The notes beneath the pieces were generated by a model. The model was not told the DNA's origin, did not search any database, and was given only the letters and a program-made list of their open reading frames with translations. Below, one piece after another: positions 13,650 through 23,832 of a DNA stretch of 53,686 bases. The DNA lies in IMG/VR virus record IMGVR_UViG_3300014491_000004, positions 1 to 53,686 of that record; one strand, written 5' to 3'. The stretch's first letter is position 1; every line of letters starts with the position of its first letter. The translations under genes and the position numbers were made by a program. The DNA is from a virus.

Positions 13650-13979
13650 TTACCAAGCAAATGGGCTAGAATTGCCTTCACCGAAAAATGTGATGCGGAT
13701 TTTTCCCATATCTCCGGAGCAAAATCCTAAAATCATCAGGTTCCGGATAATTCTCATTTTGGCATATTTCCTGAATTCGCTTAAAGTCAGATTGGCTTTG
13801 AGGTTGTTGCAATAGCCACACGCGGGAACAAGATTTTCATCGGTATTTTTACCACCGCGGCTGCGGGGCTTGGCGTGATCAATGGTAAGTTCTTCTGGTT
13901 TGGCACCACAGTACCAACACCTACCTTGACATTTTTTTGATGCTCTTACCCATTGATTTTTTCGGGGGGATCGAATCAT
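13650..13979 (-). CDS. HNH endonuclease, small free-standing type
   Basis: A 109-aa protein. CWYCGAKPEELTIDHAKPRSRGG followed by NLVPACGYCNNLKAN is a clear HNH nuclease: CxxC, the central DH, the Asn and a second CxxC that holds structural zinc. The C-terminal 35 residues carry no DNA-binding repeat. It lies in the endonuclease-invaded block between the 1291-aa gene and a small repeat-bearing gene. It is likely a free-standing homing-type endonuclease; packaging-associated HNH proteins look similar, but no terminase is nearby. No convincing Shine-Dalgarno is seen before the ATG. Confidence 0.75.
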   Translation of the reverse strand: MIRSPRKNQWVRASKKCQGRCWYCGAKPEELTIDHAKPRSRGGKNTDENLVPACGYCNNLKANLTLSEFRKYAKMRIIRNLMILGFCSGDMGKIRITFFGEGNSSPFAW

Positions 13980-13989
13980 TGAAGACTGT

Positions 13990-14454
13990 TCATATAGTTT
14001 TGTCTAAGCCCATTCTACGCCTAAATTCCGGATCATCGGTAGAACTTTCCTTGGGAACAGCTTTTCCTCGTTTGACAGATGGGGTAAATTCTTCTTCAGC
14101 AAAGCCTTGTTTCTTGACGGGGGGACTGCCTTGGGGACTGCCTTGGGGACTGCCTTGGGGACTGCCTTGGGGACTGCCTTGGAGTTTAGCGATAGGCTCT
14201 GATGATGTTTTAGGGGCTTTAGGGACGACTTTAGGTGCAGATGGGGCTTGGACTACTTCTTGAATAAATTCGCTCTTTACAAGGGCTGCTAAGCCCAATT
14301 GAGTCTGTTTTACAGCTTTTATAATCTCCCCATTTCGATATACAGTAAGCCGGTTAGCGTTTCCAATATCATGAACCAGAATATCTCCTACTTTAACGAA
14401 AAATCCAAAATCGGCAAAGTGGATTGGGGACTTAACTAGATAATTTTTTTGCAT
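13990..14454 (-). CDS. Hypothetical protein with five GSPQ repeats
   Basis: A 154-aa protein. Residues 1-70 are ordered: FFVKVGDILVHDIGNANRL and VYRNGEIIKAVKQTQLG suggest a small barrel, distantly like the SH3-type modules of the neighbouring 1291-aa protein. A Pro/Ala-rich linker and five tandem QGSP units (DNA repeat 14121-14180) follow, then a basic tail ending FRRRMGLDKTI. It probably belongs to the virion set, with the repeat acting as a flexible spacer. Function unknown. Confidence 0.55.
   Translation of the reverse strand: MQKNYLVKSPIHFADFGFFVKVGDILVHDIGNANRLTVYRNGEIIKAVKQTQLGLAALVKSEFIQEVVQAPSAPKVVPKAPKTSSEPIAKLQGSPQGSPQGSPQGSPQGSPPVKKQGFAEEEFTPSVKRGKAVPKESSTDDPEFRRRMGLDKTI
14121..14180. 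repeat. Five perfect tandem copies of a 12-bp unit
   Basis: The unit ggggactgcctt is repeated without error at 14121, 14133, 14145, 14157 and 14169. On the minus strand it encodes a four-residue Gln-Gly-Ser-Pro repeat in frame. Perfect identity points to recent slippage, so copy number is likely to vary between isolates. Confidence 0.95.
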
Positions 14455-14469
14455 GCAATCTCCCTCTAC

Positions 14470-16212
14470 TTAAATACTGGGAATTGGCCAGTTTTGAAAG
14501 TTGAAGGAATACCTCCTCTTACCACTATCCCAAATCCTGTACCAGCCTTTGGCTTCCGCAGCAGATTTTTCATTAATTCCGGCTTTCACTCTCATGGCAT
14601 ATTTGGATACACGCCTACTTCCGTTCGTGTATGAAAAGTTGGGTTTTATTTCTTCTTCAAAATCAAACCCCAACTTTTCATATAGATTTCCCGTATGAAA
14701 TCTATTATCAGAAAATGTAATAATACGTTTGAATCCCATAGCTTTTAATTTTGGGATAGATAAGTTAAGAGCTTTCTCATGCGGGTTCCAAGCTTTATAT
14801 TGATGATCCCAGCAAGCTCTGTGCCATAACACAGTACCTTCTTCCCGCTTCATGAAGACCCAAACACCCACTATCTGCCCTTTATATTTGGCGGTAACTG
14901 TTAAGCATCCAGAGGCAGCCCCAAGATAATGATATTGATCAAGAAAAGCACGAGCATCGGATGGGATTTTATCAAATATCTCATAAGTAGGTTTAATTCT
15001 TTTTTTACGGGTAGGAGATAAAATTTCCTGTATTTGAGCTTTGATGATACTTTGTTTAGTTTCCCATTCATCTGAATATATTTGAATCAAACGATCCTTA
15101 CGGGATTTAGCTAATAGGTATTTCTCCCAGTCATTTTTATTGGGGTTCTTATACTTTTCACTATGCCAAATAAGACCATGATATTCAATAGCTAACTTTT
15201 TTGCTGGGACATATACATCATATGACCTGCGACTATTGAGTAATGGGTAACAAGCAGGTAAGGTATCAGGAGATAATAAAGTTACAAAGTTTCTTACCTC
15301 TGATTCTTTTGAAAACTCACTTTGTCCTATTTGCTGGCACCCACATGAACGAGTACTACCATCATTTACATCGGCTAATCTTGCTGATATTTTATTACCA
15401 CAAGCACAAATAAATTGAAGTTTTTTGTTAGACATAGGAGGATATTCTCCTTTTTGTCCTTGTATTAAAGAAAGATTACCCCATTTGAGGGTTCCCCAGT
15501 AACCTGTAGAAAAATAATTACACTCCCCGCAGGATTGTTGATATCCTTGTGTGACATGACCAAATTGTATTTTTTTAACTTTCCCACACATACACAAAAA
15601 TGAAAATTTTTTTGATGAAAAAGGATGTAGCGTTTCTGGAAAATTAAAATCATGTAGTTTTAATTTACCCCAGCGTTTCCTATACCAGTATTTTTTGTTT
15701 TTTTGGTTACATCTACCACAACTCTTAGTATCCCCTTTTGTTACATTTTGAAAAATTGCCATATGTGTATTGCCGCAATCACATAAAAATTTAAATTTTT
15801 TATTGGAGCTAGCCCCCCACTCAGTAGGCAAATTCTCCTCTTGTATCAACTTTAACTTACCAAATTTTTGATTGATCCATGTGCTTTGAGATTGATAAGT
15901 ACATTTCCCACAGCTTTTAGTGTTTCCACTACTTACCGCTTGAAATTTCATGTATATCGATCGAGAACAAGTGCATACAAAACAAAATTTGTTGTGAGAA
16001 TTTTTAGGCAATTCAACAGGTAAGTTTTGCCTGGTATCAAGTTTCAAATGACCAAAGGATTGGTCTAACCAGTAATTTATAGGTTTGTAAGAGCATTTTC
16101 CGCAGGTTTTAGTTTTAGCTAAATTTCCATAAAGTATGTTGGATTTCCTGCCGCATTGGCATAGCACGGCTATTTTTGTACGAGACAACGGAAATTTTTG
16201 AGTAACTAGCAT
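14470..16212 (-). CDS. EDxHD (Vsr-like) homing endonuclease with five zinc modules
   Basis: A 580-aa protein. The N-terminal 290 residues hold five degenerate repeats of the form W....FGKLKL...F.C.CG........G.TKSCG.C, each likely a small Cys4 zinc element for DNA contact. The middle (about 310-390) reads YDVYVPAKKLAIEYHGLIWHS...LIQIYSDEWE, the catalytic core of the EDxHD family related to Vsr nucleases (I-Bth0305I type). The C-terminal 170 residues, FDKIPSDARAFLDQYHYLGAA.., resemble a GNAT-like domain often fused to these enzymes. It would cleave a phage target allele and spread its own gene. It lies between virion genes, 111 bases downstream of a second endonuclease gene. Confidence 0.75.
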   Translation of the reverse strand: MLVTQKFPLSRTKIAVLCQCGRKSNILYGNLAKTKTCGKCSYKPINYWLDQSFGHLKLDTRQNLPVELPKNSHNKFCFVCTCSRSIYMKFQAVSSGNTKSCGKCTYQSQSTWINQKFGKLKLIQEENLPTEWGASSNKKFKFLCDCGNTHMAIFQNVTKGDTKSCGRCNQKNKKYWYRKRWGKLKLHDFNFPETLHPFSSKKFSFLCMCGKVKKIQFGHVTQGYQQSCGECNYFSTGYWGTLKWGNLSLIQGQKGEYPPMSNKKLQFICACGNKISARLADVNDGSTRSCGCQQIGQSEFSKESEVRNFVTLLSPDTLPACYPLLNSRRSYDVYVPAKKLAIEYHGLIWHSEKYKNPNKNDWEKYLLAKSRKDRLIQIYSDEWETKQSIIKAQIQEILSPTRKKRIKPTYEIFDKIPSDARAFLDQYHYLGAASGCLTVTAKYKGQIVGVWVFMKREEGTVLWHRACWDHQYKAWNPHEKALNLSIPKLKAMGFKRIITFSDNRFHTGNLYEKLGFDFEEEIKPNFSYTNGSRRVSKYAMRVKAGINEKSAAEAKGWYRIWDSGKRRYSFNFQNWPIPSI

Positions 16213-16260
16213 AATAAGTCTATATAGACAATACTCAAAAATTTGTTAGTAAAATTTTAG

Positions 16261-16296
16261 GGTAAAAAGAAAGGCGAACTTTTTAGGTTCGCCTTT
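16261..16296 (-). terminator. Rho-independent terminator after the HNH/NUMOD3 endonuclease gene
   Basis: On the minus strand, AAAGGCGAAC and GTTCGCCTTT form a perfect 10-bp stem (16270-16296) with a short A-rich loop, followed by CTTTTT (16261-16269). It stands in the same position, relative to a shared 39-bp sequence, as the terminator behind the capsid gene. Confidence 0.8.
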
Positions 16297-16332
16297 AAAG
16301 ATAAGCAGTTGAAAATAAGTAGTTTAGTTCTC
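16294..16332. repeat. 39-bp direct repeat, copy 1 (3' end of the endonuclease gene)
   Basis: A perfect 39-bp match to 17633-17671, the 3' end of the major capsid gene and its downstream sequence. A second shared block, gttaacagtaagtct, lies at 16339-16353 here and 17702-17716 there. Together they copy the end of the capsid coding region with an internal deletion. Confidence 0.95.
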
Positions 16333-17517
16333 TCCAGTGTTAACAGTAAGTCTTTGAACCTGTATTTCTGATGTTTTCTTGGTGTGGAATGCTTTCAGAC
16401 TTTCGGAGCGCTTGAGTCTCGTCGCTTCCGATTGCGTTTTTCCCTCAAGGGATTTTGATATCTTGTCGCGGGTGGCGGCGTCCCGTTCCTTGCCAAAGAA
16501 CACATGGTTCTCGCCACGGGGACGGGCGGCGTCAAGCGCGGCTACGCCTTCCGGGTTGCTGGCATAAAATTCCTTGTGCGATTCTGACATATTATCTTTG
16601 GTTTCTTTGGTATGGGACTTGCCAAGCATAGTCAGACCGTTGGTAGGTACAATGCCCTTCATTGATTCGGAACGAGCTTGACGAGATTCGTCGGACCATT
16701 GCCAGTGTTTGCCTTTGGCGATTGAGATTCCCTGACCGACAGGGTGGGTAGATGGCTGCGGTCGTCCTTTTAGGGTCTTGCTGATCTTCGCTGCAACTTC
16801 AGGTGGACAGCCTAAGATACGACGGTGATGCTGGTCGCCCCTGGGCATGTAGGAATAGGCATCGTCTTTGGTTTGTTCTTTTTCATGCCGCTCAGTGATG
16901 GCTTTACTGATAGCCGTTTTGGTTTCGTCGGTTTGTAAGTTCTTACCAAGAACGTATCCGCTCTGTAGATAAACCGCCATCTCGCTAAGTAGGATACGGT
17001 GCTGTTCCACGCCACGCATCACCCATACACGCTTAGGGACACCCGTCGTCCAGCCGAGGGCGACGTATGATTCGACTTGGTCTGGCGGGCACACCGAACA
17101 TTCTTTCTCGGTGCGGTAGATTCTGACCCAGCCTTTGATAGTTGACTCCACGCCTTGGGCGCGGGCTTCCTCGTAAGCTTTGGCTACATCCTTAACCAGC
17201 GCCTCGTCGAAATTCTGTTCCACGAGTTCCACGTAGCGCAAGCCAACCATGAGAATGAACGCGGCACGCGCAGCGGAGACACCCGGAAGAGCCCTGTAGA
17301 GGTAGTAGTGCGCCAGCAGATGGTCGGCGGGTCGGAGGTCAATCCTGTTCCATGAGTGGGTTTGGAAAGATTTGTAGTCCGGAAACACAGCTTGCGGCAG
17401 GATATGGTGCCTGTCGAACAGCCCTGTTGGTTGTGGGGTCTCTTCCAAGAAGCTGATGTAGCGATCCAGCCAAAACGGGTTGTGATCTAGTTTCGCCAGA
17501 ATAGTTTTGATATCCAT
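16324..17517 (-). CDS. HNH homing endonuclease with NUMOD3-type repeats and a capsid-derived C-terminus
   Basis: A 397-aa protein from ATG 17517, chosen because GGAGGGCGAT precedes it. DRHHILPQAVFP with DLRPADHLLAHYYLY (about 40-80) is the HNH-like catalytic region, close to that of the protein at 19637-20551. Residues 215-385 hold NUMOD3-type DNA-binding repeats (ISKTLKGRPQ, SESMKG, TKETKDNMSESHK, KISKSLEGKTQSEATRLKRSESLK). The last residues, VQRLTVNTGEN, reproduce the capsid protein end VQRLTVN...NTGEN. By eye it is more GC-rich than its flanks and has its own promoter and terminator, so it looks like a recently inserted self-contained mobile unit downstream of the capsid gene. Confidence 0.8.
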   Translation of the reverse strand: MDIKTILAKLDHNPFWLDRYISFLEETPQPTGLFDRHHILPQAVFPDYKSFQTHSWNRIDLRPADHLLAHYYLYRALPGVSAARAAFILMVGLRYVELVEQNFDEALVKDVAKAYEEARAQGVESTIKGWVRIYRTEKECSVCPPDQVESYVALGWTTGVPKRVWVMRGVEQHRILLSEMAVYLQSGYVLGKNLQTDETKTAISKAITERHEKEQTKDDAYSYMPRGDQHHRRILGCPPEVAAKISKTLKGRPQPSTHPVGQGISIAKGKHWQWSDESRQARSESMKGIVPTNGLTMLGKSHTKETKDNMSESHKEFYASNPEGVAALDAARPRGENHVFFGKERDAATRDKISKSLEGKTQSEATRLKRSESLKAFHTKKTSEIQVQRLTVNTGEN

Positions 17518-17533
17518 ATCGCCCTCCAAGACT

Positions 17534-17561
17534 ATAATACCATGTATTTAGAAAATATCAA
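17534..17561 (-). promoter_or_regulatory. Sigma70-like promoter of the endonuclease gene
   Basis: Minus strand: TTGATA (17556-17561), a 16-bp spacer ending in TGG (extended -10), then TATTAT (17534-17539). GGAGGG and the ATG follow within about 20 bases. It implies expression independent of the late virion transcript. Confidence 0.65.
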
Positions 17562-17599
17562 TAATTGAAAATGTAAAAATTAAAAAACCATTTACTGAG

Positions 17600-17635
17600 C
17601 AAAAGAAAACGGCTGACCTTGTGGGCCAGCCGTTT
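17600..17635 (-). terminator. Rho-independent terminator after the major capsid gene
   Basis: Minus strand: AAACGGCTGGCC pairs with GGTCAGCCGTTT (12 bp with one G-U pair, 17607-17635), followed by TCTTTT. It limits readthrough from the capsid gene into the endonuclease gene. Confidence 0.8.
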
Positions 17636-17671
17636 AAAGATAAGCAGTTGAAAATAAGTAGTTTAGTTCTC
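17633..17671. repeat. 39-bp direct repeat, copy 2 (3' end of the capsid gene)
   Basis: Perfect copy of 16294-16332. Here it spans the last codons of the capsid gene, its stop and the start of the terminator. Confidence 0.95.
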
Positions 17672-18622
17672 GCCTGTGTTGGCGGTTGCAACGAAGCGAC
17701 CGTTAACAGTAAGTCTCTGGACTCCGCTCGGATTAAAAATGAGGAAGCCAAGATTCTCAAAAATAGAGAACCCGATTTGACGTAAGTCAGGTCTATCTGC
17801 ACTCATGACCGTTAGCGGAATTCTTTCGGGAATGACTCCGAGGAATTCAGCATCGGCCAAAATGTAAATGCAGCCATAACCTACTTTACGAGATTGGAGA
17901 AGAGTTGCACCCCACAAATATCCCATGACCCCAGTCTTTAAAAGCTTACGCTGAGTTTCACGGTCGATGTTTTGTTGAGTCCACTTCAACAAATCCGTAT
18001 AATCACGCGGATTGAAGAAGCAGAAAGCTACAGACAAATCATGACGCTGCACTTGACCAAAGCCGTCTGCCATTGAGTTGAGGTCAATAGGAGCGTTGAT
18101 CTGAATGTCCGGGTTATAAACCGGGTCGTTAGCAGCATGCGTTGCCGCAGCGTTAGCGACTGCATCGAAGAGCGAAAAAACGTACGAGTCTTCTTGCGCA
18201 CCAACTTCAGCTTTCGCCAAGTTGAGTGAACGAGCGACGAGATCGAATCTGCGTTCCTTGATTTGGGTAATAGGAATCATTGGGTTCGACACAATTTCAA
18301 ATGTGGGAACCGTGACACGCTTTGGTTTAGTAACGCGGACAATATCTCCGCCTTCTTCACCCACAACGAATGCTTCAACAAAGGACGAACCAGGTGTTGA
18401 ACCAACCGTCATAGCTGCGGTGTCAAATTCTTTATCGTAGATCGGCAGTGCGCCGTCCGGTAGAGTTTCGACCATCAATGCTTTACGAGCGATGGACATA
18501 TAATCTCTACGACGACGAAGGGAAGGTCCCAACGACGCCGCTAGTTTTTGTCTGCCACCGGCTGTCTTGAGCAGTTGCCCAAGCATTGCGGTCTGTTGCT
18601 GAGTACGTGAAAGGTTTGCCAT
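17663..18622 (-). CDS. Major capsid protein, HK97 fold
   Basis: A 319-aa protein. The N-terminal 50 residues are helical and basic (LKTAGGRQKLAASLGPSLRRRRDY). Residues about 60-130 fit an E-loop and P-domain start. The C-terminal third, YILADAEFLGVIPERIPLTVM followed by FSIFENLGFLIFNPSGVQRL, matches the A-domain/P-domain end typical of HK97-type capsid proteins of large myoviruses. The gene follows scaffold, protease and a decoration-type gene, the usual head-gene order, has an AGGAGAGG ribosome site and ends at a strong terminator. No cleaved delta domain is obvious, so a separate scaffold (20608-22872) may direct assembly. Confidence 0.8.
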   Translation of the reverse strand: MANLSRTQQQTAMLGQLLKTAGGRQKLAASLGPSLRRRRDYMSIARKALMVETLPDGALPIYDKEFDTAAMTVGSTPGSSFVEAFVVGEEGGDIVRVTKPKRVTVPTFEIVSNPMIPITQIKERRFDLVARSLNLAKAEVGAQEDSYVFSLFDAVANAAATHAANDPVYNPDIQINAPIDLNSMADGFGQVQRHDLSVAFCFFNPRDYTDLLKWTQQNIDRETQRKLLKTGVMGYLWGATLLQSRKVGYGCIYILADAEFLGVIPERIPLTVMSADRPDLRQIGFSIFENLGFLIFNPSGVQRLTVNGRFVATANTGEN

Positions 18623-18639
18623 ATTTTATTTTCCTCTCC

Positions 18640-19473
18640 TTAGATTAGGCTCGCTACACCAAGCCAAGGCTCAATGGTAGACGGCACATGCGTGCAAATT
18701 CCTACAACTCCAACACCTGCTGCTTTAGCCTGATGTGTTTGATCGGTGTATTTCCCGACATTCGCATAAGTTACAGAGGTACCACAGTATAGGTATTGTC
18801 CGATTTTAAAAGTTCCATTAGCGTCATAGCCCTGATAGTCCACATTGCCCTGCCAAAGTGCGCGGACAACAGGAGCTTTTTTAGAACCAGACGGCCCAAT
18901 TGCACCAGCGAATTCGCCGGGACCGTTGAGCAGCGTTGCGAACGGGACATTTCCTTCGTTAGCTCCATAAGAACCTGCACCTGTATCACAAGGTACAATG
19001 TTTCCAATAGAACCAAACGCAGGCTCGTAAGCTGACTGGTAAGCAATGGGATAGGTAAGAGTAGCAGCACTGTCAATCAGCGCTACAATTACACCACCAA
19101 GGTACCCAGCAGAAGTAAGAGTCTGTTGGTCACTTCCCGGATCACCAGTTAGGGAAACGGCGGGCGTACAGTTGACCGAATCGTTTTGACCGTAATATGT
19201 TAATTTACAGGTTTGTTATCAACTACTTATAACAGTAATGGTACTGGATGTAACATTACTATAAGTAGTTGAGATAAGGCATTTCTGCTTATCTCTTACG
19301 GTTACTATTCCCGTAATGCTCGGACTATCGCACCATCCATTTGGATGCCTTCTCGCTTAGTCTCTCAGGCTGCTATTTCTAGCTTGCCCCTTGTTGGCGT
19401 TTCAGCGTTCAAGTCAATAAGAGAAGGTTTACAAACTTTAAGTTTCCTTAAAGCGGCCCCAATTGAGGCTCAT
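18640..19473 (-). CDS. Capsid decoration-type protein, split by a group I intron (join 19466-19473, 18640-19207)
   Basis: Exon 1 is only ATGAGCCT (19466-19473), with GGAG twelve bases upstream; exon 2 is 19207 down to 18640. Joining them gives an uninterrupted 191-aa protein starting MSLKLTYYGQNDSVN. Unspliced, the frame of exon 2 meets a TAA immediately upstream (at 19216). The body is beta-rich and Gly-rich (AGYLGGVIVALIDSAATLTYP..) and ends FKIGQYLYCGTSV...GVGVVGICTHVPSTIEPWLGVASLI, like DUF2190-type or other small capsid decoration proteins encoded just before the capsid gene. Expression of this late protein should depend on RNA splicing. Function is inferred from context; the split is supported by frame restoration and intron structure. 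Confidence 0.75.
19208..19465 (-). ncRNA. Group I intron, 258 nt, without internal ORF
   Basis: Minus strand. P1: exon GCCU with intron GGGC, with a U-G pair at the splice site. A stem CTTTAAG/CTTAAAG (19436-19453) closes a GAAA loop. P3: CCTTCTC (19421-19427) with GAGAAGG (19348-19354). P7: GACTA (19358-19362) with TAGTC (19323-19327). P8: CATCC/GGATG (19334-19347). P3 and P7 interleave as the group I pseudoknot requires. Further hairpins are GCTA-GAAA-TAGC, TTACGG/CCGTAA, GAGATAAG/CTTATCTC and a 12-bp CAACTACTTATA stem. The intron ends in G (19208), and exon 2 UAA can form a short P10. The 5' end is laid out like the T4 td intron. Splicing restores the reading frame. Confidence 0.88.
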
Positions 19474-19636
19474 ATTTTTTAGTTTCTCCGTGTAGCTTAA
19501 GAATTGTTTTAAAACCAATCTAGTCCTTTTGGAAAGGAGTAAGACTATAGAATTAAAACGGCTACATTCATGCGATTAATAATTGGTTTTCAAACTAACT
19601 ATCTTTTTTATCATTTTGTTAGTATTTATAGTAATA

Positions 19637-20551
19637 ATGTCCTTACCAAATTGGATTCGTGATAAATTAGCTACTTTTGAATCTAAAGCTGATTTTTCAC
19701 TTTATTGTAATTTTATTGATAGTTGCCCTACGAGGGATAAAAATGGGTCCGAATTACATCACATTTTACCAAGAAGTGCTTTTCCAGAAGATACTAAATA
19801 TCCAGATAATTTGATTTTTCTTTCATATCAAGACCATTTTAAAGCACATTATTGGCTAGCGGTATGTGCTCCTCAAATTTATAAATTTCAACTTACATTT
19901 TATTACATGGCCAATAATAAAACTGTGTATCAAGTCTCTGAAGAAGAATTACCTAGTTATGCTGAAGTATATGAGCGCGGAAGAATATTACAGTCAAAAA
20001 TAGTTACTGAATATAATGAAAAAGAAAATATTAAGCTACAAAATTTCCAATGTGATATTTGCGGGAAAGAATTTATACAAGTTACTAAAGGGGTTTTTGG
20101 TGGGCATAGACGTTTTTGTATAAATCATGCTGCTAAAAAAATACCGGATCGTCCCAATGTTATCTTTACAGATGAACAAATCAAACGATGTGGTAAATGT
20201 TTAACCAATAAGCCTCTTAACGAGTTTAATAAAGAACGTAAAGCCAGGTTAGGAAGGGCTAATTTTTGCAGGTTATGTGCCCGTGCTCACAACAAAGCAA
20301 AAAATGTAGATTTCAAATTAGGTACTATAAAAAACGAAACTAACACTTTAAAAGATTACACATGCCCTAATTGTGAGAGGGAATTTAAACAAGTAAAGCC
20401 TGGTGTTTTTGGTGGGCATAGACGAAGTTGTATTAACTATAGAGATAGGCGAGAAGAATTTCTTAAATGGTCAGGTACTATACAGGAGTTTGCTAACTTA
20501 CATGAACTCCCTTTTCAAACTGTATGGCGCTGGCATCTAAATCGAAAATAA
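19637..20551 (+). CDS. HNH homing endonuclease, divergent from the intron-containing gene
   Basis: A 304-aa protein starting at ATG 19637 (MSLPNWIRDKL); an in-frame TTG at 19583 would add a hydrophobic stretch and is less likely. SELHHILPRSAFPED...DNLIFLSYQDHFKAHYWL is an HNH-like catalytic region, related to that of the endonuclease at 16324-17517. Two zinc ribbons follow, each with a shared ending (CDICGKEF...VFGGHRRFC and CPNCEREF...VFGGHRRSC), plus a central CGKC...CRLC pair, and a C-terminal DNA-binding helix-turn-helix-like IQEFANLHELPFQTVWRWH. It lies outside the intron on the opposite strand, 163 bases from exon 1. Confidence 0.75.
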   Translation: MSLPNWIRDKLATFESKADFSLYCNFIDSCPTRDKNGSELHHILPRSAFPEDTKYPDNLIFLSYQDHFKAHYWLAVCAPQIYKFQLTFYYMANNKTVYQVSEEELPSYAEVYERGRILQSKIVTEYNEKENIKLQNFQCDICGKEFIQVTKGVFGGHRRFCINHAAKKIPDRPNVIFTDEQIKRCGKCLTNKPLNEFNKERKARLGRANFCRLCARAHNKAKNVDFKLGTIKNETNTLKDYTCPNCEREFKQVKPGVFGGHRRSCINYRDRREEFLKWSGTIQEFANLHELPFQTVWRWHLNRK

Positions 20552-20557
20552 TGGAGC

Positions 20558-20585
20558 AAAACAAAAGCCCCGGTTTCCCGGGGCT
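20558..20585 (-). terminator. Rho-independent terminator after the scaffold gene
   Basis: AGCCCCGG (20566-20573) pairs perfectly with CCGGGGCT (20578-20585); on the minus strand TTTTGTTTTG follows. On the plus strand there is no U-run, so it mainly serves the scaffold transcript. Because it separates the scaffold from the intron-split gene, the latter needs its own promoter or readthrough. Confidence 0.8.
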
Positions 20586-20607
20586 CATTGTTAGAAGTAA
20601 AAATAAG

Positions 20608-22872
20608 TTAAAAGTCATCGTCCCCAAATAAAGCGGAAGCGATATTCATTGGTTTAGGTGCAGAGGCTGTAACAGCTTTTAGTTTTTTGATAACTGGTGT
20701 TTTGGCTGAACTTTCTTTTGATTTAGTAGGTAGTTTGAGTTCGTTAGTTTCGTCTTGTTTTACACGTTTAAATCCGCCATCTTCGGGCTTCTGATCTTCA
20801 ATTGCCTCAGCGAATAGATCGCCTTCGTGATCGGATTCATTATCTCTACTCTCACCCTTTGCGGTATCTGTTTCCATCTTATTGGCGAGTTCGCCTGTAG
20901 ATGTTGGAATTACAGTCATACCAGCAACATCAGCTGCGGTACGAATTTCACCGGCAATAAGATGAGCCAATGGGTCACTATCACTACCGCGCAAAGAGAA
21001 GAAATCATCCATTGATGCCATTTGAGGTTCATCCAAACTAGCTTCCATGGTTTCCGCAGCGCTGGGGGCAAAATACTCTTCCCCATTACCAGCGGTATGT
21101 TCATCATCCTCATTTGCCAGGGCGCTAACTTTTTCTTCCATTTCTTCTGTAGCGCTTCCATCTTCATTGAAGATTCCGGACATATCGAGTTCTTCACCTT
21201 CAGGTCCAACTTCCTCGGGTCCTTCATTCATTTTTGACAAATCAAGTTCTTCATCGCCTTCAGACAGGATTTCCTGTTCCAAAGCTTGGATCGCTTCTTG
21301 AGCTTCTTCAATTTTCTCTTCAACGACCATTTTCTTTTCATCAGAAAGAACTTCACCTGGGGTATCCGCGCCCTCTTCGGTTGGCGGCATATCCATTGGT
21401 GCTTCTTCCATTGCTTCATCTTCTGGTGGTACATCCATTGGAGCTTCTTCTACTGGAGCTTCACCGTCCATGGGAGGTACATCATCGGTTGGTGGGGCAT
21501 CCATAACAGGTGGGGCAGCTTTTTTAGTGGTTGCTTCTTTCTTATCTTTCTTGTCTTTAGACTTTCCTGTGTTTTTGCAGAAGTTACAACTGCAATCTGG
21601 TTTGTGAGCGGCTTCCTTCTTGTTGTCACACTTACAAGGTCCTTTACATTTTTCGCACTTGGCTGCTGCTTTTTCAGTAGCTCCGCATTTGCATTTGCCT
21701 TCTTCGCAATCGCACTTAGCAGTCTTAGACGCTTTCTTGTCGCCATCAGATTTGTTAATAGTATTATCTGGACGATTCTGAGGTTCGGTTTGAGATGAAG
21801 TTGAACCAGCGTCCATTTCCTTAGGCTCAGTATGCTTACCGCCGCCGCAGCCTCTACCATCATTATAAGTTTCGGGTTGAGGACCAGATTCTTTACGATC
21901 ATCAGCAACTTTATCAGTTATACGGCGACCACCGGCATTCTTGGGTTCACCCTTGAGTTCGGCAGCTACAGCTCGTTGTTCTGAAGTTAGTTCGGATGAT
22001 GGTGGGAGAAGATCATTCATTTCTTTCTTGTGAACTTCTTCGGCTTGCTTGGTATAATGAGAATTCTTTGCGGTTTGACGAAGCATCGCATTCAATACCG
22101 GAGTAGTATTTTGAAGTAGGGTAGCAGCTGCGCTCTTTTGCACTTCTGCGGGCGCGGTTGGGAGCATAGTTTTTGCGATTGTCCACGCTGCGGCAACACG
22201 CTGTTGTGCTTCTTTCCTAATCGCCTCGCGTCTAATTTTTGTATCTGCCAGCTTTTGATTTACTGAAGCTGTGGCTTGAGTCGGAGTTGCCATATAATTG
22301 CCTTCCTTTTTTGAGTTCAAATGGGCAAAATTGCCCCTCTCTTCAAGAGATTGATAGTTAATTTTCTTACTAGTTGAGTTTTTAGAAGCCGCCATAGGGG
22401 GTTCCAATGGGGGGGCTCCTGCTTCAGGGGGTGTAGTTGGTGCTGCCGGGTGTACGGGTTCTGATACAGGAGGGGCAGATTCAGGCGCTACAGGACTTGG
22501 TGGGGGCATCATACCCATATCTGCACCGCCGCCTAAATCACCTTCCATGCCAGGTAATGCAGAACCAGGGGCTACTTCTCCTCCGGCAATATCAGTAATT
22601 TCAATATCAATTTCACTTAAAAGTTGTTTTATATCCTCAGACCAGGGACCACCTTTAAACTTTTCCCATTCACCTATAAGCTGCACGCCCTCGCGCATAT
22701 TATGAATTTCTTCTTCAAGTTCTTCGCGTTTCTCTGCGAGTAGGTCAAATTCAGGCGATGAAGACATATCCGGAGGAAGGTTGGAATCCATTTCCAAAAG
22801 CTGATCATCCATCATATCCAGATCTGCTTGTTTTCGTTCTAGTGCTGCTTGTACTGTTTTTAGGTTTGCCAT
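20608..22872 (-). CDS. Scaffold / head-core-like acidic protein with a Cys-rich insert
   Basis: A 754-aa protein, not matched to a family by sequence. Residues 1-95 form a coiled coil (LERKQADLDMMDDQLLEM..). Residues 95-170 are Gly/Pro/Met-rich. From 194 an Ala/Gln/Lys helical region follows, then a dense Cys cluster (about 385-435: KCDCEEGKCKCG, CEKCKGPCKCD, CSCNFCKN), a highly acidic Pro/Met/Glu stretch (450-570), and a C-terminus ending ASALFGDDDF. Acidic low-complexity composition and position between protease-like and capsid genes fit a scaffold or prohead core. An internal ATG at 22293 with AGGAAGG suggests a second, 561-aa in-frame product. Confidence 0.6.
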   Translation of the reverse strand: MANLKTVQAALERKQADLDMMDDQLLEMDSNLPPDMSSSPEFDLLAEKREELEEEIHNMREGVQLIGEWEKFKGGPWSEDIKQLLSEIDIEITDIAGGEVAPGSALPGMEGDLGGGADMGMMPPPSPVAPESAPPVSEPVHPAAPTTPPEAGAPPLEPPMAASKNSTSKKINYQSLEERGNFAHLNSKKEGNYMATPTQATASVNQKLADTKIRREAIRKEAQQRVAAAWTIAKTMLPTAPAEVQKSAAATLLQNTTPVLNAMLRQTAKNSHYTKQAEEVHKKEMNDLLPPSSELTSEQRAVAAELKGEPKNAGGRRITDKVADDRKESGPQPETYNDGRGCGGGKHTEPKEMDAGSTSSQTEPQNRPDNTINKSDGDKKASKTAKCDCEEGKCKCGATEKAAAKCEKCKGPCKCDNKKEAAHKPDCSCNFCKNTGKSKDKKDKKEATTKKAAPPVMDAPPTDDVPPMDGEAPVEEAPMDVPPEDEAMEEAPMDMPPTEEGADTPGEVLSDEKKMVVEEKIEEAQEAIQALEQEILSEGDEELDLSKMNEGPEEVGPEGEELDMSGIFNEDGSATEEMEEKVSALANEDDEHTAGNGEEYFAPSAAETMEASLDEPQMASMDDFFSLRGSDSDPLAHLIAGEIRTAADVAGMTVIPTSTGELANKMETDTAKGESRDNESDHEGDLFAEAIEDQKPEDGGFKRVKQDETNELKLPTKSKESSAKTPVIKKLKAVTASAPKPMNIASALFGDDDF
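22291..22306 (-). promoter_or_regulatory. Internal ribosome site and start inside the scaffold gene
   Basis: Minus strand GGAAGG (22301-22306) lies seven bases before ATG 22293, in frame at residue 194, giving MATPTQATASVNQK. The start resembles those of neighbouring genes (MANL.., MATP..). This would produce a shorter nested protein from the same gene, as lambda C/Nu3 do. Confidence 0.55.
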
Positions 22873-22917
22873 AGTTGGTAAATTCCTTGTTCTATAGAGA
22901 ATTTCGTAGTTGGGTTT

Positions 22918-23832
22918 CTAGCGCCGTAACCCCCCTTTGATGTCATTTTCAAGCAAAAATTCACAGATGTCCGACCGGTCAGAAGCTGCTTTTGCAAACG
23001 CAGCTGTCTTAGCCGCAGTCTGTGTATATGGGGTTTTTGGTCCTTCCCACGATTCAGCGACTATATTTCGTTTCACCGCGCCAGGAAAAGCTGGAGTTGC
23101 TACCCAACTGGCTTCTACAAATTTTACTCCGCCATTAGGCATCGTTTTATGCCCGCAAAGTTCCGCTATTCTACGAGGGATCCCGTTATCGTCGGCCAGA
23201 AAGGTCCCTTTTTGATATTGTAAATGGGAACAGTAGGTACTAGCATCAGTTACATGCGCACCGCAGTAAGAACAAATAACTAAGTCTGTAACACATCCCA
23301 TGGAGAGATAACGCACGTTGCCGTCTCGAATGTCGCTCACCAGCTTCTCGTGAGTGACATCAGTCGCTACGAGGATGTCACAGAAATAAACCCAGATGCC
23401 GCCCGCGATATTGATCTTACGCAAGACTTGACTGAGGATATGCCCTTTTGCATATTTCGAATTCTGGAAATGCTCAACGAAGTTGAACGCGCCTACGAAA
23501 GATGGTGCAGAAAGTTTCAGTACTTCGTTCGTCCACGCGTCATCGTTATTATTCACCAAATGACTTGTCTCGGGCTTGATGAAATAGTCGAATGGTTCTT
23601 CTTCAGTCATCACTGATGCCATGATCGTGCAATGGCTAAGCAAGTAATTTGAGGACTTTGCAATTTTTTGCGCGGACGCGGTTTTGCAGAACGGATGATC
23701 CCCGTCAATGTGGCATCCACGAAATGCTCGGCTGCCGTACATTTTTTCCCAATCACCGGGTTTTAGAACGGGCTCTGTAACAGCCGCATTTGCAAATTTT
23801 TTAAAAGGCATCCTATTTTGTTTTGTCCACAC
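22918..23832 (-). CDS. Prohead-protease-like head maturation protein
   Basis: A 304-aa protein. Central residues about 130-190 read VGAFNFVEHFQNSKYAKGHIL...DILVATDVTHEKLVSDIRDGNVRYLSMGC. The Ser in LSMGC and an upstream His are plausible catalytic residues of a prohead serine protease. Next comes a zinc-ribbon-like insert, CSYCGAHVTDASTYCSHL, and GGVKFVEASWVATPAFPGA, a segment seen in phage prohead proteins that describe an altered capsid chaperone/protease. It lies just upstream of the scaffold gene, as expected. Start is uncertain: GTG 23832 or ATG 23811, the latter with AGG directly touching the ATG. Confidence 0.6.
   Translation of the reverse strand: MWTKQNRMPFKKFANAAVTEPVLKPGDWEKMYGSRAFRGCHIDGDHPFCKTASAQKIAKSSNYLLSHCTIMASVMTEEEPFDYFIKPETSHLVNNNDDAWTNEVLKLSAPSFVGAFNFVEHFQNSKYAKGHILSQVLRKINIAGGIWVYFCDILVATDVTHEKLVSDIRDGNVRYLSMGCVTDLVICSYCGAHVTDASTYCSHLQYQKGTFLADDNGIPRRIAELCGHKTMPNGGVKFVEASWVATPAFPGAVKRNIVAESWEGPKTPYTQTAAKTAAFAKAASDRSDICEFLLENDIKGGLRR

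Follow-up and report, generated by a model that had tools for sequence, protein, structure and literature searches.

Behind the major capsid gene of a phage known from metagenomes lie two selfish DNA-cutting genes, the first of which, HEG401, reads in frame into a shortened second copy of the capsid gene's 3′ end. In the window analyzed here, the complete 53,686-nucleotide stretch of IMG/VR record IMGVR_UViG_3300014491_000004, the minus-strand order is capsid gene, terminator A, HEG401, capsid tail, terminator B, a promoter-like motif, a second endonuclease gene (HEG580), and the conserved gene g154. HEG401 and HEG580 normally compete for one spot behind the capsid gene. We propose, as the probable though by no means certain explanation, that the capsid-g154 interval is the shared homing site of two unrelated endonucleases and that the second tail is the scar of faulty break repair between two of its alleles. 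The locus then captures two competing homing endonucleases stacked behind one essential gene, where the scar may mark the point at which break repair joined the alleles, and it points to a homing slot at the capsid 3′ end that has been used time and again within a group of jumbo phages.

A capsid-gene end at the 3′ end of an endonuclease gene

The major capsid protein gene (17663–18622, minus strand; 319 aa) matches the major head protein family phrog_2522 (E=8.6e-43) and ends in the C-terminal tail GVQRLTVNGRFVATANTGEN. Its product shares 71% identity with its counterpart in Tunturiibacter phage Tunturi_5, a major head protein, and 33.5% with that of Bacillus phage G, matches by which the window is probably a piece of a jumbo phage. 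The HEG401 reading frame (16324–17529, minus strand) would encode 401 aa if started at the TTG at 17529, but likely begins at an RBS-preceded ATG at 17517 to give a protein of 397 aa (16324–17517). The predicted product is an HNH endonuclease with NUMOD3 repeats (NUMOD3, E=1.4e-10; phrog_655 homing endonuclease, E=9.5e-21), in which the HHILP...N...DH..AH motif is invariant in an alignment with its relatives and the C-terminus, IQVQRLTVNTGEN, is fused to the capsid tail. With a nuclease domain coupled to DNA-binding modules, and occupying a single site in some close relatives but not in others, outside any intron or intein, HEG401 can be classed from its sequence as a free-standing HNH homing endonuclease. 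HEG580 (14470–16212, minus strand), a second putative homing endonuclease, falls into different families (phrog_559, E=3.2e-47; phrog_3339, E=7e-36), and g154 (13990–14454, minus strand), which has a tblastn match in most capsid-bearing loci, forms the right border of the slot. Within g154, a 12-bp tandem repeat, GCCTTGGGGACT (QGSP repeats; window 14116–14187), varies in copy number, with 24 bp extra in contig 3300029953.

The initial annotation had described a perfect 39-bp repeat and a second block common to the two gene ends, with both proteins ending VQRLTVN...NTGEN ahead of a terminator, and each of these elements is exactly as described. The repeat, TTTAAAGATAAGCAGTTGAAAATAAGTAGTTTAGTTCTC, spans the last capsid codons, the stop codon and the spacer at 17633–17671 and is matched perfectly at 16294–16332, both on the minus strand; extended to 48-mers (17633–17680 and 16294–16341) the copies are 96% identical, and the second block, GTTAACAGTAAGTCT, lies at 17702–17716 and 16339–16353. 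Its 30-nt core occurs exactly twice in the window and was absent from 100 dinucleotide shuffles even at three mismatches, which rules out a chance origin. A dispersed element was likewise rejected, as there are only two sites in the window and in IMG/VR the repeat is confined to contigs of the same phage. The whole arrangement is found in three IMG/VR assemblies, namely the window, IMGVR 3300029914 (9 SNPs relative to the window) and 3300029953 (two indels), the latter two from other metagenomes; because these differ yet keep the arrangement, it is unlikely that the repeat was misassembled.

Tail copy 1 (17663–17725, minus strand) comprises GVQRLTVNGRFVATANTGEN and the stop codon, and copy 2 (16324–16359, minus strand), reading VQRLTVN-NTGEN and stop, is colinear with it minus seven codons (21 nt, GRFVATA); the endonuclease frame is indeed fused to a deleted copy of the capsid tail, as had been annotated. 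The copies differ by four coding substitutions, all of them synonymous (p about 0.003–0.007 for four random changes), a pattern that fits the expectation for two tails that each evolved as a capsid tail. In the spacer that follows the stop codon (ACTACTTATTTTCAACTGCTTATC; 30 nt) the copies do not differ at all, and later gene conversion could account for this identity beside the four coding changes. The codons AGA CTT ACT GTT AAC are present in both tails and in no other allele, and the two are therefore tails of one lineage.

Each tail copy is followed by a terminator-type hairpin and T-run (z −4.5 and −4.2 against shuffled sequence). Terminator A, behind the capsid gene (17610–17632, minus strand; CGGCTGGCCCACAAGGTCAGCCG), resembles the one behind the capsid gene of L030, a relative that bears HEG401, and flank A resembles the corresponding flank there; terminator B (GGCGAACCTAAAAAGTTCGCC) lies between HEG401 and HEG580 (16273–16293, minus strand), and flank B is not specifically closer to the flanks of HEG580-bearing relatives, which are too divergent for an assignment by sequence affinity. 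Beyond the repeat, flanks A and B retain a weak colinear similarity whose score was reached by 20 of 500 shuffles. A promoter-like GGTATTATAG just upstream of HEG401 (17532–17541, minus strand) also precedes HEG401 relatives, as well as g154 in empty alleles, and a promoter-like GAGTATTG before HEG580 (16229–16236, minus strand) matches the TTGAGTATT motif that precedes g154 in several empty alleles; a promoter function is predicted for both from the motif. More generally, a (G)GTATTA or GAGTATT motif stands upstream of g154 and most slot genes (capsid-g154 intervals L003–L060), and the last codons of several HEG401-type genes resemble it (for example AGT ATC TAA GTAG in L030), so that this may be a phage promoter motif overlapping the endonuclease gene ends.

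An intron-like feature was also observed beside the capsid gene, where a presumed decoration-protein gene (18640–19473) is split after its first codons (MSLK...) by ~260 nt (19199–19462, minus strand). The 3′ part of this insert is 88% identical in L030 and contains group-I-intron-like CAAGGGGCAAGC and GAUAGUCCGA motifs and strong hairpins; an Rfam search for an intron returned no match, and the insert is therefore only a candidate ORF-less intron. Just upstream of the split gene and antisense to it lies HEG322 (19583–20551, plus strand), an HNH endonuclease of phrog_655. L030 combines the intron-like sequence with a 46% relative of HEG322, and by analogy the arrangement resembles collaborative homing.

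The capsid-g154 slot in related phages

A capsid search of IMG/VR returned 80 loci, which after collapsing of duplicates left ~41 distinct alleles besides this phage that reach at least 1.5 kb past the capsid stop codon. The slot is empty in 19 of these, with g154 following 103–171 nt after the capsid stop; it is occupied by a HEG401-type gene in six (L003, L005, L006, L009, L023, L030), by a HEG580-type gene alone in three (L048, L052, L057), and by unrelated genes in others. Among the alleles examined, the two endonuclease types stand in tandem only in this phage. A second tail copy was sought in all ~41 relatives and found in none, each having a single tail, and the tail-copy score rises well above the shuffled background only in this phage's contigs. 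Endonuclease-less relatives thus carry one tail and one terminator, as the initial annotation had predicted, and the case it had named as contrary evidence, such a relative with both copies, does not occur among them.

The six HEG401-type relatives end in a short, lineage-specific C-terminus of their own and lead directly into g154 with no capsid tail or terminator behind them; they diverge after SLKAFH into short unrelated C-termini, and tail 2 starts exactly there. On the evidence of these six alleles, the idea that HEG401 normally includes the tail is rejected. HEG580-type relatives, conversely, sit directly behind the capsid tail and terminator, preceded in L048 and L052 by a GTATT-type motif too, and the unit of tail 2, terminator B, promoter-like motif, HEG580 and g154 therefore repeats the whole layout of a HEG580 allele, while the segment from the capsid gene to the HEG401 end has that of a HEG401 allele. 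Judged by this layout, the tail copy looks like what was once the left edge of a capsid allele with HEG580, now displaced. Tail 2 and its terminator belong anatomically to the gene downstream, HEG580.

More distant loci bear on what directs these genes to the slot. In L089, whose capsid is just 72% identical, a seventh HEG401 relative lies right behind the capsid gene, and in L082 a T5orf172/MUG113 nuclease joined to the C-terminal domain of HEG401 (61%, residues 267–382) likewise follows the capsid gene; it is therefore the C-terminal domain and not the nuclease type that tracks location. By inference, the target of this domain would lie near the capsid 3′ end or in the g154 leader, and its occurrence in both HNH and T5orf172 nucleases makes the target site testable. 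The L082 gene (5400–6485) looks as if one nuclease had been exchanged for another on a DNA-binding domain common to both. In L025 and L033 the slot holds Nudix-hydrolase-like-looking proteins and other non-HEG cargo, and it is therefore also a general accessory site. No HEG401 relative was found in phage records and no capsid relative in genome contigs; L103, with a distant HEG580 relative, has no capsid match.

Origin of the fusion

In the scenario we favor, related phages would use the capsid-g154 interval as a homing slot for either HEG401 or HEG580, and during a co-infection a nuclease would cut one capsid allele. Repair would then copy the other allele, closing one side by homology (in the capsid body or g154) and the other by end joining, which would have attached the HEG401 3′ end to the capsid tail end. 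The expected product is a unit of capsid tail, terminator A and HEG401 ahead of a displaced unit of capsid tail, terminator B, promoter, HEG580 and g154, with a junction within the last HEG401 codons, such that HEG401 would read into the displaced tail and use its stop codon. We infer endonuclease-triggered repair between two alleles as the source of the join, and with it the place of the cut and the course of the event; either the HEG401 or the HEG580 allele may have been the recipient. The junction shows no microhomology, which would be recognizable only against the ending that HEG401 originally had in this lineage, and an IMG/VR search for a parental allele (HEG401-only or HEG580-only with the same spacer) found none. 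The repeat does not reflect the general insertion route of HEG401 and is probably the scar of a single event. Of the origins suggested in the initial annotation, duplication during break repair stands as the most likely class, while the tail has no part in the normal insertion of HEG401, given the six alleles that lack it.

An unlikely but substantial alternative is a segmental duplication within one genome, in which HEG401 cleavage would have led to tandem amplification of capsid tail, terminator and HEG401 through a join of the HEG 3′ end with the capsid tail upstream of it; later, the second HEG401 and the terminator before it would have given way to HEG580. A junction of just this type, a C-terminally truncated endonuclease joined to an upstream gene, arises in the SegB amplification of phage T6 (PMC13096335), and the single lineage of both tails and their identical spacer agree with it. 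It requires an extra replacement step, however, no relative carries two HEG401 copies, and the two flanks have different terminators and promoters, while their tails differ at exclusively synonymous sites. Between true alleles, the spacer is likewise often better conserved than the terminator hairpin (96% vs. 70% identity for L010/L011; 88% vs. 62% for L024/L029), and this contrast, together with the synonymous-only differences, is easier to reconcile with two alleles than with a duplication inside one genome. We consider it quite improbable that HEG401 belongs to a mobile ORF of the kind known from fungal mitochondria, a unit that brings along a capsid tail and terminator of its own, integrates within the resident capsid tail and restores the gene with the tail it carries while pushing the native one downstream. 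The layout and mostly synonymous divergence do match the fungal atp6, atp9, cox2 and nad3 mobile ORFs (PMC3630166), and flank A resembles that of L030; yet no other HEG401-type insertion has a displaced tail, which makes this at most a one-off here, and it overlaps with two-allele joining if the recipient was the HEG580 allele.

Two further proposals assign the tail a benefit. That the fusion was selected strikes us as a long shot. On this view HEG401 would be the phage equivalent of the fungal mobile ORFs that replace a gene end: it would cut the essential capsid gene yet rescue it with a gene end of its own, synonymously recoded and resistant to cleavage, and would settle on top of a rival endonuclease allele without displacing it. 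Retention for function, either as a peptide that targets the endonuclease to capsids or as DNA homology for precise HEG401 loss or spread, is highly improbable: the reading frame and peptide are conserved through four of four synonymous differences, and a clean HEG580 allele would result if the two 39-bp repeats recombined, but copy 2 has lost seven codons, among them those of the GRF/GRY motif of nearly all capsid tails, and none of the other HEG401 relatives has a tail.

Comparison with known systems

Site-specific recombinases that integrate at tRNA or other gene 3′ ends also leave a gene end on both sides of the element, the likeness raised by the initial annotation. It does not extend to the machinery: HEG401 is an HNH nuclease and not an integrase, the ORFs scanned around the element (13650–23832) include no integrase match, and a search of the window for tRNA genes came up empty. 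In place of identical att repeats, the copies are unequal, copy 2 lacking 21 nt, and the repeat is not found around other HEG401 copies. In phage T6, SegB drives tandem amplification in which break repair joins the truncated endonuclease 3′ end to the upstream gene (PMC13096335). The common element is an endonuclease 3′ end, truncated at the C-terminus and joined to upstream target-gene sequence; there, however, the whole tRNA-segB unit is repeated head to tail, whereas here only the capsid tail and spacer are repeated, followed by a different endonuclease.

In a limited literature search we found no paper on two rival endonucleases stacked at one locus along with a capsid tail out of place, nor, in the portions consulted of two accounts of free-standing phage endonucleases, a tail-copy fusion or two-allele stacking (PMC2988022, PMC10448857). 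The same portions describe phage endonucleases that cluster near capsid and other essential genes and shuffle their DNA-binding domains (PMC10448857; T4 elements, PMC2988022); like the locus presented here, the T4 seg and mob genes and HEG islands place nuclease genes that are present or absent among relatives around capsid genes (PMC2988022, PMC10448857).

The closest architectural parallel is provided by fungal mitochondrial mobile ORFs with carboxy-terminal duplications, described for Allomyces atp6 and for Glomus atp6, atp9, cox2 and nad3 (PMC3630166). In both settings the endonuclease gene has an in-frame gene end on one side and, on the other, a displaced second copy that has diverged largely at synonymous sites (PMC3630166), and a gene-end copy flanks HEG401 on either side (17663–17725 and 16324–16359). 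A carried copy that had diverged from the native one would point to foreign origin; here the two copies share lineage-specific codons and spacer and differ at just four synonymous sites. Duplication does not accompany insertion in the other HEG401-type alleles, which have no second tail. Furthermore, the displaced tail is here fused in frame to the endonuclease, two endonucleases are stacked, the host genome is that of a phage, and HEG401 is of the HNH type with relatives free of any duplication, whereas the Glomus units are LAGLIDADG or GIY-YIG. With these differences, the locus extends to phages a gene-end duplication known from fungal mitochondria.
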